Below are positions 10,386 to 12,330 of a DNA stretch of 64,000 bases, in pieces. Position numbers and translations under genes: made by a program. The DNA is from Chthoniobacterales bacterium (lineage in GTDB: Bacteria; Verrucomicrobiota; Verrucomicrobiia; Chthoniobacterales; JACTMZ01), in assembly GCA_014879535.1 (NCBI GenBank), contig JACSRX010000008.1, forward strand, positions 1 to 64,000, written 5' to 3'. Position 1 is the stretch's first letter. Every line of letters begins with the position of its first letter. The notes under the pieces are model-generated. The model did no database searches, was not told the origin of the DNA, and saw nothing but the letters and a program-made list of their open reading frames with translations.

Positions 10386-11210
10386 ATGAGACGGCTTCTT
10401 CGGGCTTCGCTGCCTGCCACGGTGCTGCTTGTGTCGGTCGCGGCAGTGCTGCCGGCTTGGGGCGGGTGGCAGGATGACGTCCTCGCGATTCGTCCGGGCA
10501 CGACGCCTCCCCCGCCATCGGATCTGACGGCGCGCTATGTGTTCGGGTGGAGCGGCATCGAGGCCGCCGAGGCCGAGGTGAAACTGCGCCGTGGGGATGG
10601 CGGCATGTGGACCGCCACGGTGCAGGGTGGGACCACGGGATTCGCGCGTTCGCTCTGGAAACTGGATGCCGATTACGAAGCCGTCCTCTCGGAGCAGGAT
10701 TGGCGCTCGGTCACCTCGCGCCTCGTGGAGCGATACGCGCGTTACACGACCGACGAAAAGACCGAATTCCGTCCCGGCGGCGCGCGCTCATGGCGCGAGA
10801 GCACGAGGGAGGGCGCGAAGCCTCCGAAGTGGAAGAATTTCTACGTCCCCGGACTTCGGGACATTGCCGCGGCCCTGCTGCTTGCGCGCAGCCAGCCGCT
10901 CGCAAACGGCGACCGCATCACTCTCGCCGTGTTTCCCGGGCAGTGGATGTATCTCGTCCGGATCAAGGTGGCGGGGCGCGGGAAAATACGGTGGCAGGGA
11001 AAGAACCGCGATGTCATCCGGGCCACCCTGCAGATCGACTCGATCAACAAGGACTACACGTTGAGCCCGCACAGGAAGTTCCAGCGCGGAACGGTGTGGG
11101 TGAGTGATGACGACCTCCGGATACCGCTCCGTGTCGAGGTGAAGGTGTTCGTCGGCCACGTCTTCGCCGAGCTGGCGCGGGAACCTGCCGTTGGCGCCCA
11201 GAAACAATGA
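10386..11210 (+). CDS. DUF3108-family envelope protein
   Basis: A 274-residue secreted protein with a signal peptide (about residues 1-26, cleavage near LPAWG). The body matches the DUF3108 pattern. It opens with 'ARYVFGWSGIEAAEAEVKL' (the family's 'Y-v-W-Gi--ge' strand). It continues with 'TGFARSLWKLDADYEAVL' and a central 'FYVPGLRDIAAALLLARSQPL', and closes with 'GTVWVSDDDLRIPLRVEVKVFVGHV', which matches the typical C-terminal strands. DUF3108 proteins are periplasmic beta-rich proteins of unknown function. The start at 10386 is chosen because it gives a proper signal peptide. A strong hairpin follows the stop codon. Confidence 0.8.
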   Translation: MRRLLRASLPATVLLVSVAAVLPAWGGWQDDVLAIRPGTTPPPPSDLTARYVFGWSGIEAAEAEVKLRRGDGGMWTATVQGGTTGFARSLWKLDADYEAVLSEQDWRSVTSRLVERYARYTTDEKTEFRPGGARSWRESTREGAKPPKWKNFYVPGLRDIAAALLLARSQPLANGDRITLAVFPGQWMYLVRIKVAGRGKIRWQGKNRDVIRATLQIDSINKDYTLSPHRKFQRGTVWVSDDDLRIPLRVEVKVFVGHVFAELAREPAVGAQKQ

Positions 11211-11212
11211 CG

Positions 11213-11240
11213 CGCGCCCGGCTTTCACCGGGCGCGCGCA
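11213..11240. terminator. bidirectional hairpin between convergent genes
   Basis: A perfect 10-base inverted repeat (GCGCGCCCGG, loop CTTTCA, CCGGGCGCGC) lies just after the DUF3108 stop. It sits between that gene and the convergent small Cys-rich peptide gene ending at 11260. There is no long T-run on either side, so efficiency is uncertain. Confidence 0.6.
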
Positions 11241-11259: not shown

Positions 11260-11391
11260 TCAGCAGCAGCCGGCTTTGCACTCGCAGGGGCAGCATTTGC
11301 CGCCGCAATCGGTGCAGTTGCACGGAGTTGCTGCCGTGGCGCTCAAGGCCAGGGCGGCAACCGCCATCATCGCGAATAAGAAGGTTTTCAT
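11260..11391 (-). CDS. 43-residue secreted cysteine-rich peptide
   Basis: A very short gene with clear protein logic. MKTFLFAMMAVAALALSATA is a textbook signal peptide, and cleavage would leave 23 residues of which nine are Cys (CNC, CTDC, CC-PC-EC and a terminal GCC). The Cys spacing resembles metallothionein-like or other soft-metal-binding peptides, but disulfide-rich folding outside the cytoplasm is also possible. On the minus strand a TAGAAT box (11406 to 11401) precedes the ATG by nine bases. A second secreted Cys-rich gene lies upstream on the same strand (11476-11778), and a strong hairpin lies downstream. The function is inferred from composition only. Confidence 0.7.
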   Translation of the reverse strand: MKTFLFAMMAVAALALSATAATPCNCTDCGGKCCPCECKAGCC

Positions 11392-11475
11392 CTTTATGGA
11401 ATTCTATTCGGGTTGCGTTCAGTGATCGCCCGCCATGCACAAGGCGGAAGCGCGGGCGCCGGCGCGATGATGCGG

Positions 11476-11778
11476 TCAGGCCCGAGGGGGCGGAACAGGT
11501 GGCTGCTCGGTGCGTGCCGGGGCAAACAGGTCGCCGGCATGGAACACCGCGAGCGGGTGCCGTGAAAAATCGAAAGGCGCCGTCTGATCGGCAAGCGTGG
11601 CCACGCCCGTGGAGGGAACGACGAAGGCGATCGGACAAACGCAGGCGGGGGCGCCGCAGGTGGCCTCCGATTTGCAGCATGCGGAGGCGCAGGGCTCGGC
11701 CTTGGGTGCCGCGGACACCGGGGTGAGTGGCAAAAACGCCAATCCACCGAGCAGGCCGAGCAGCATCAAGGCTTTCAC
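11476..11778 (-). CDS. secreted cysteine-rich protein, possible metal binder
   Basis: The chosen GTG start gives a 100-residue protein opening with a good signal peptide (residues 1-23, M/VKALMLLGLLGGLAFLPLTPVSA). Next is a Cys cluster at about residues 30-48 (C-x3-CC, then C-x4-C-x-C), then a Pro-rich tail. A longer frame reaches 11877, but a strong promoter (TTGACG-16-TACATT) lies inside that extension, ending seven bases before this GTG, so the long form cannot be made from it. The paired secreted Cys-rich genes at 11260 and here suggest metal or thiol chemistry in the envelope. The family is unknown to me. Confidence 0.65.
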   Translation of the reverse strand: MKALMLLGLLGGLAFLPLTPVSAAPKAEPCASACCKSEATCGAPACVCPIAFVVPSTGVATLADQTAPFDFSRHPLAVFHAGDLFAPARTEQPPVPPPRA

Positions 11779-12096
11779 GAGAGCGAATGTAGGCTGTTGG
11801 CGCGCCGCGTCAAGATGCCCTGTCGACATTATGTGTTGCGAATGCATGGCTTGATGCTGCGGGTATGCGGGCTGCAATCGGACGTGTGGCTTGAGAGGTC
11901 AATGCCGAGAATCCAGACACAGGGAGCGGCGGATTTTATCAATAGATACAAGTGCAACTCATTGTGGGAAAACGTAATAATACATTCCATTGCATATTAT
12001 GCAGAATATCAAAATGAATTCCAACGACGTGAGACAAGGCCAATCCGGCTGGAAAATCTCTTGCGCCGTGGGCTGTCGGGATGGAGCTTTTGCGCC
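11779..12096. other. 318-base non-coding stretch with an A+T-rich island and palindrome
   Basis: No gene is visible. The left end holds the minus-strand promoter at 11786-11813. From about 11941 to 12026 the composition drops sharply (27 of 86 bases are G or C by direct count) in an otherwise very G+C-rich window. Inside it lies the palindrome TGCATA-T-TATGCA (11991-12003). The island sits upstream of the FmdB-like gene at 12097, so it may be its regulatory region. It could also be a remnant of acquired DNA. Confidence 0.5.
11786..11813 (-). promoter_or_regulatory. promoter of the Cys-rich gene, probably leaderless
   Basis: On the minus strand TTGACG (11813 to 11808), a 16-base spacer and TACATT (11791 to 11786) form a strong promoter. 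The -10 ends seven bases before the GTG at 11778. It decides the start codon of that gene. Confidence 0.6.
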
Positions 12097-12330
12097 ATGG
12101 CCATTTACGTTTACGAGACCATCCCCTCCCGCGAGGGGGAGTCGGTGAGGACTTACGAGATCCGGCAAAGCATGAAGGATGATGCGCTCAAAATGCACCC
12201 CGAGACCGGAGAGCCGATCCGCCGGGTGATCACGGGGGGGCTCGGCGTCATGACGTCCTCCAAGGGTGCGCCTGCTCCGCGGCCTGTGTCGGGTGGTCAT
12301 TGCTGCGGCGGTGGCTGCGGTTGCGGGTAG
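12097..12330 (+). CDS. FmdB-like protein without its zinc-ribbon cysteines
   Basis: A 77-residue protein that aligns with FmdB/CxxC zinc-ribbon proteins. It starts MAIYVYETI (family: MP-YEYRC), has 'YEIRQSMKDDAL' where the family has 'FE--QS--D-PL', then 'HPETGEPIRRVITGG' where the family has 'CP-CG-PVRRVIS'. All four zinc-ligand Cys of the standard ribbon are absent. Instead the C-terminus ends HCCGGGCGCG, a new Cys cluster. I chose ATG at 12097 because the upstream part of the frame is A+T-rich non-coding DNA. It lies beside two secreted Cys-rich genes. The role is unknown. Regulatory functions claimed for FmdB are not established for this variant. Confidence 0.7.
   Translation: MAIYVYETIPSREGESVRTYEIRQSMKDDALKMHPETGEPIRRVITGGLGVMTSSKGAPAPRPVSGGHCCGGGCGCG

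Follow-up and report, generated by a model that had tools for sequence, protein, structure and literature searches.

What a 43-codon ORF crowded with cysteine codons may do for a Chthoniobacterales bacterium is the question raised by a short segment of the window, that is, of the whole 64,000-nucleotide stretch of DNA analysed here. The ORF occupies positions 11260..11391 on the minus strand, starts with ATG, and translates as MKTFLFAMMAVAALALSATA followed by ATPCNCTDCGGKCCPCECKAGCC and a stop codon, the junction between the two parts being the predicted cleavage point. The N-terminal part, MKTFLFAMMAVAALALSATA, was judged by eye to be a plausible Sec signal with cleavage after ATA, and nine of the 23 residues of the predicted mature part are cysteines (positions 24, 26, 29, 33, 34, 36, 38, 42, and 43, all within the last 20 residues), arranged in CxC, CxxC, and vicinal CC motifs and accompanied by no histidine. 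In size, cysteine richness, and CxC/CxxC content the peptide presumably resembles the bacterial metallothioneins SmtA and MymT. A sequence-only reading had proposed an exported-looking, cysteine-rich peptide at this position without stating the strand; the 43-residue ORF is real, and the signal-like start and the 23-residue mature part bear the proposal out. Searches of the peptide against Pfam, NCBIfam, and PDB sequences returned nothing meaningful, and the same holds for a peptide of the related family described below against Pfam and NCBIfam. Likewise, the peptide matched no profile of a described metallothionein family, with no relevant match in Pfam and none in NCBIfam, and an Rfam scan at gathering scores found nothing within the window.

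A chance ORF is ruled out by ortholog matches and invariant cysteines. Specifically, a search of 97 whole genomes (that of the window plus 96 relatives) retrieved strong orthologs in six of the ten other genomes of the same genus, with E values from 2.9e-17 to 5.2e-13 and 65-74% identity, and the cysteine pattern, whose conservation in related genomes the sequence-only reading had proposed as a check, is kept at all nine positions in all seven genus sequences. The named MAGs in which an ortholog occurs carry the labels Chthoniobacter flavus, Chthoniobacterales, and uncultured Verrucomicrobia (five loci). Whole-gene dN/dS between the window and the six others amounts to 0.15/0.41, 0.19/0.48, 0.19/0.74, 0.26/0.35, 0.26/0.35, and 0.29/0.51; dN is lower than dS in all six comparisons, but not throughout all 21 pairs, which include one close pair with dN 0.04 against dS 0.03 and one identical pair. 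Hits with E above 0.01 in the 97-genome search are mostly chance matches, but three (L009, L018, and L024, from another family of the order) proved on inspection to be related peptides. In a second family, the peptide consensus is roughly MKYLLMIVAALALVGTA-ATSRSADCC....CC....CC, with six cysteines set as three CC pairs, and a signal-peptide-like start is retained in the peptides of both families.

The sequence-only reading overlooked that another gene precedes the peptide in what is a two-gene unit, and this partner provides the stronger functional evidence. This upstream gene (11476..11778, minus strand) encodes a 100-aa leader with a hydrophobic N-terminus, a CxxxCC..C..CVC cluster, and the end EQPPVPPPRA, in which the codons for PPVPPPRA and the stop (11476..11502, minus strand) specify a predicted ribosome-stalling C-terminus. 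The GTG at 11778 was picked as the leader start from the promoter and the N-terminus, with the ATG at 11766 as the alternative, and the resulting N-terminus, VKALMLLGLLGGLAFLPLTPVSA, is signal-peptide-like by eye. The leader stop is separated from the peptide start by 84 nt in the window and by 69-84 nt in the genus genomes that have the peptide, and the DNA conservation upstream of the peptide extends into the leader gene. None of the 12 aligned leaders deviates from PPVPPPRA and the following stop, the motif itself having been the criterion for their selection. Moreover, the window leader carries a cysteine motif of metal-binding type upstream of this end, with six cysteines placed 43-61 residues ahead of the nine-residue end, and the second-family leaders have cysteines 40, 39, and 36 residues before the nine-residue (R/Q)PPVPPPRA in 10 of 12 cases, the other two being shifted by 1-3 residues. 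The window leader finds no match in Pfam or NCBIfam. The DUF2946 profile (PF11162) matches four of the 12 aligned leaders, the best near full profile length with E 8.8e-4 and a score of 20.5 bits, short of the gathering cutoff at 23.7; it matches neither the window leader nor anything else in the window's genome.

The two genes are tightly coupled. Within the genus they co-occur perfectly, both being present in seven of the 11 genomes and neither in four, and the leader profile recovers exactly the seven peptide-bearing genomes at E 2.6e-14 or better, its only further hits being two weak ones (G003, E 0.09; G005, E 0.79). The four genomes lacking both genes are 65-90% complete, and their absence there is likely genuine, if unproven for each genome individually. 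Across the order, the DNA pattern for PPVPPPRA and a stop has exact matches at 20 places, spread over 19 of the 213 genomes searched, against none for the reversed control, and at 19 of these places a cysteine-rich, signal-like mini-peptide follows, starting 66-84 nt past the stop and measuring 40-43 residues except for the L057 peptide, which has a C-terminus altered by a frameshift. The twentieth place (L055) was discarded as a chance motif match with no leader-like ORF. The frameshift itself, which follows CCSGGH in the peptide gene (L057 / L103, genome G144), may be a MAG error or mark a decayed copy. A joint peptide profile built from 15 sequences (four from the genus, 11 from the second family) finds 50 of the 213 order genomes at E<=0.01; below 1e-6 it finds 40 places in 39 genomes, as counted by hand from the listing, all within the two families. 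In the second family (Chthoniobacterales, Verrucomicrobiota), a leader lies directly upstream at 24 of the 26 fetched loci with a six-cysteine peptide, with an identical C-terminus or with variants that include PPVPPPRFSEV and PPPPPPRLAAA; one of these 24 leaders (L092) has an apparently broken N-terminus, and the two exceptions are a locus at a contig end (L086) and one without a leader upstream (L105). The cysteine pattern of the L104 peptide is altered. In a sample of 387 genomes from the phylum, the exact motif occurs in two, both members of the order, and the peptide profile in five at E<=0.001, including two weak matches outside the order, of which one (L106) has one internal stop and the other (L107) showed nothing alike when its locus was inspected. 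Judged from sequence, the gene pair is older than the genus.

Both ends of the unit carry recognizable signals. Upstream of the leader lies a predicted promoter, TTGACG-16-TACATT (11786..11813, minus strand), the -10 element of which ends 7 nt before the leader GTG, and the general form TTGACN-16/17-TANNNT, with 2-8 nt between the end of the -10 element and the leader start, is found at seven of seven genus loci (at G002 the leader start was set one codon early, and the real gap is likely 5); by comparison, 16 of 2000 shuffled controls combined a score of at least 8 with a spacing of 4-9 nt. Since the -10 element abuts the leader start, a leaderless transcript is predicted. Downstream, a G+C-rich stem with a T-rich tail (11210..11239, minus strand) forms a predicted intrinsic terminator at the end of the two-gene unit, and such a terminator-like element is present 3' of the peptide in seven of seven genus genomes, which predicts that within the genus the unit contains no further gene after the peptide.

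Heavy-metal-binding-domain (HMBD) motifs lie downstream at eight of the 26 second-family loci, and the one gene tested matches Pfam HMBD at E 5.8e-12; the window unit has no adjoining metal-resistance gene, and the presence of HMBD genes in the genus (five of the 11 genomes) does not follow that of the unit. At L056-L060 and L065, the gene downstream of the peptide encodes a protein of ~430-507 aa that carries an HMBD at its N-terminus and also has a conserved stretch around SSVNLADPMSREGSGTSWLPDSS. The divergent neighbour in the window (12097-12330, plus strand) encodes a short protein that resembles FmdB (Zn_ribbon_8 at E 0.0054, below cutoff) and has the cysteine-rich tail GGHCCGGGCGCG; in several genus members (L031, L034, and L035) the neighbour is different, and an antiporter-like gene (NhaD-like, by eye) ends some 50 nt ahead of the leader gene. 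Finally, at L077 (genome G094), the opposite strand encodes, at an oriented offset of +6240 to +6573 after the motif, a short protein ending in ...FEHAPPALA that has no Pfam match and adjoins ORFs named by eye as TonB-receptor-like and CDF-like transporter; it is possibly a second leader of the RAPP/CutF kind.

The RNA between the two genes contains a hairpin at 19 of 19 loci, located in the window at 11427..11452 on the minus strand, where it has a TT bulge. Counted on hand-anchored arms at the other 18 loci, all 91 cells are paired, with 13 distinct arm pairs and several positions changed on both sides, a count that is favoured by the selection of the arms as hairpins and that omits the window row on account of its bulge; with this row included, 97 of 98 cells are paired, one being broken in the ungapped register. 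None of 10000 permutations of the 3' arm reached the observed pairing, and sliding the arms reduced it by about half. Within one group, the observed count was reached by 139 of 10000 permutations in the second family and by 1645 of 10000 in the genus, and these weaker results indicate that much of the hairpin signal is between families. RNAalifold run on plain MAFFT alignments found no pair with two-sided changes and missed the hairpin because its arms were misaligned there, and the folding energy of the spacer is ordinary (mean z -0.49, with two of 19 loci below -2). The ribosome-binding site of the window peptide is weak, mostly unpaired, and not predicted to be masked. Masking by leader codons exceeds that of synonymously recoded controls (0.02 or less) at five of 19 loci, being strong at L056, L060, and L067 (unpaired 0.00-0.03) and clear at L052 and L063; at the other 14, including the window, it is not significantly above the recoded controls. 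At five of 19, masking is not supported as a general feature of these loci.

Known nascent-chain sensors offer the closest parallels. The published rule for CutF-like proteins specifies fewer than 150 residues, a signal peptide, PP within the last 15 residues, and a same-strand neighbour within 1000 nt (PMC9973294); by its length, its proline-rich end, and its target 84 nt downstream, the window leader, whose N-terminus looks signal-like by eye, is classed, at the level of sequence, as CutF-like under this rule rather than as belonging to DUF2946. In CutF of Rhodobacter capsulatus, a CXXXC motif precedes the C-terminal PEPEGPPPRL, and neither element is dispensable (PMC8456105). The window leader shares with CutF (PMC9973294, PMC8456105) the short exported-looking protein, the central cysteine motif, the poly-proline PPPR end, the position directly upstream of the target, and the intergenic RNA hairpin. 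Conversely, CutF targets multicopper oxidase, RND, TonB, or PCuAC genes, whereas the target here is a 43-aa cysteine-rich peptide; CutF has CXXXC, whereas the window leader has a cysteine-rich cluster, a predicted leaderless start, and a Verrucomicrobiota host; and the R. capsulatus CutF RNA masks the downstream ribosome site, which in the window is predicted to be unpaired (0.74). CruR of Bordetella pertussis, a DUF2946 protein, has a fixed CXXC-to-RAPP distance (PMC9426467), which recalls the conserved spacing between the cysteines and the C-terminal motif in the leaders described here, and some relatives of the window leader match DUF2946, the best below cutoff; however, CruR has RAPP and a 162-nt gap, while the window has PPVPPPRA and an 84-nt gap, and no DUF2946 match. 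On the peptide side, the metallothionein PmtA is also very small and cysteine-rich, with CxC and CxxC, but it is reported without a signal peptide (PMC11237414), whereas the window peptide has a signal-peptide-like start and a mature part with cysteines but no histidine, and matches no family profile. Among the papers that literature searches listed, none describes, by title or abstract, a CutF-like leader with a cysteine-rich peptide as its target; the main texts of the two CutF papers contain neither "Verrucomicrobi" nor "metallothionein", and the latter word is also absent from the text of the CruR paper.

We consider it likely that the leader acts as a CutF-like nascent sensor of a metal, probably copper, and controls an exported metallothionein-like peptide. 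The promoter, leader gene, hairpin, peptide gene, and terminator would form a self-contained unit, in which export of the leader protein would start during translation. Once the cysteine cluster is out of the ribosome, PPVPPPRA would reach the catalytic centre, where poly-proline may slow or stall the ribosome, and binding of metal, most likely Cu(I), to the cluster would alter the stall. A stalled ribosome would remodel the intergenic RNA and allow the peptide to be translated, so that expression would be on with metal, as in CutF-like control. The peptide would then be exported by Sec and cut after ATA, and its 23-residue, nine-cysteine mature part would bind this metal, either in the periplasm or outside the cell, in metallothionein fashion. 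Copper is the likeliest metal because the characterised cysteine-type CutF-like and CruR systems are linked to copper, and an exported metallothionein-like role is the best reading in view of the HMBD motifs, the cysteine-only, odd-numbered, vicinal pattern, and the type of leader. Counting against this reading are the unmasked ribosome site in the window, the ordinary folding energy of the spacer, the plain alignments in which RNAalifold missed the hairpin, the window leader's failure to match Pfam or NCBIfam, the lack of an adjoining metal gene in the window, HMBD neighbours confined to part of the second family, and the second-family peptide at L105 that lacks a leader.

The signal sensed by such a switch may be of another kind, and the same architecture could respond to another thiophilic metal (Zn, Cd, Hg, Ag, or As) or to thiol oxidation, the peptide being a redox buffer or a sink for that signal. 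Cysteine-only ligands do not specify copper, not all CutF-like proteins are copper-specific (PMC9973294), and a CDF-like transporter ORF, named by eye, lies near the second-family locus L077; we nevertheless regard this as rather unlikely, since most cysteine-type CutF-like genes lie upstream of copper genes (PMC9973294) and the weak similarity seen in some of the leaders is to DUF2946, the copper-responsive CruR family. It is improbable that the leader is a SecM-like monitor of export or translation that reports secretion stress, with the peptide serving the thiol-disulfide balance of the envelope and not metal handling: a poly-proline C-terminus on an exported-looking protein would suit such a monitor, and RAPP/RGPP arrest peptides also precede Sec and thioredoxin-like genes (PMC12992588), but a near-fixed spacing between cysteine cluster and arrest motif and HMBD neighbours would be unexpected for a pure monitor.

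The peptide itself could be read in two other ways. The sequence-only reading had left open whether it is metallothionein-like or disulfide-rich, and its small size, cysteine richness, and exported look would also fit a bacteriocin-like or signalling peptide with cysteines paired after export. This we hold to be quite improbable, since nine is an odd number of cysteines, three vicinal CC pairs in the related family make a poor disulfide scaffold, and the genus terminator directly 3' leaves no immunity, transporter, or modification gene in the unit. The metallothionein-like alternative appears to fit best, given the CxC, CxxC, and CC pairs, the odd cysteine number, and the three-CC relatives downstream of a metal-sensor-like gene, and the disulfide-rich one is less likely. 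That the ORF is a mere second attenuator, functionless in itself, would agree with a terminator that ends the genus unit right after it, but is highly improbable: nothing lies beyond this terminator in the genus unit to be regulated, the invariant residues include the cysteines of the mature part, and the signal-like start is kept across two families.

Beyond the proposed copper-sensing leader and its putative metallothionein-like target, a broader proposal is put forward tentatively, and with more doubt than conviction: Verrucomicrobiota may possess a family of exported metallothioneins made on demand from a leaderless two-gene transcript through a nascent-chain copper sensor, whose cysteines would sample the metal outside the membrane while poly-proline holds the ribosome, and the same metal would be mopped up outside the cytoplasm. 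Few bacterial metallothioneins are known, and an exported family, if real, would be a new way of buffering metal in the cell envelope. If true, CutF-like control would also extend to a lineage and a type of target that are absent from the main texts of the CutF papers. The unit would moreover offer a minimal natural system in which to test metal sensing by a nascent chain, with one sensor, one tiny target, and its own promoter and terminator, in which the leader reveals the probable role of a 43-codon ORF.
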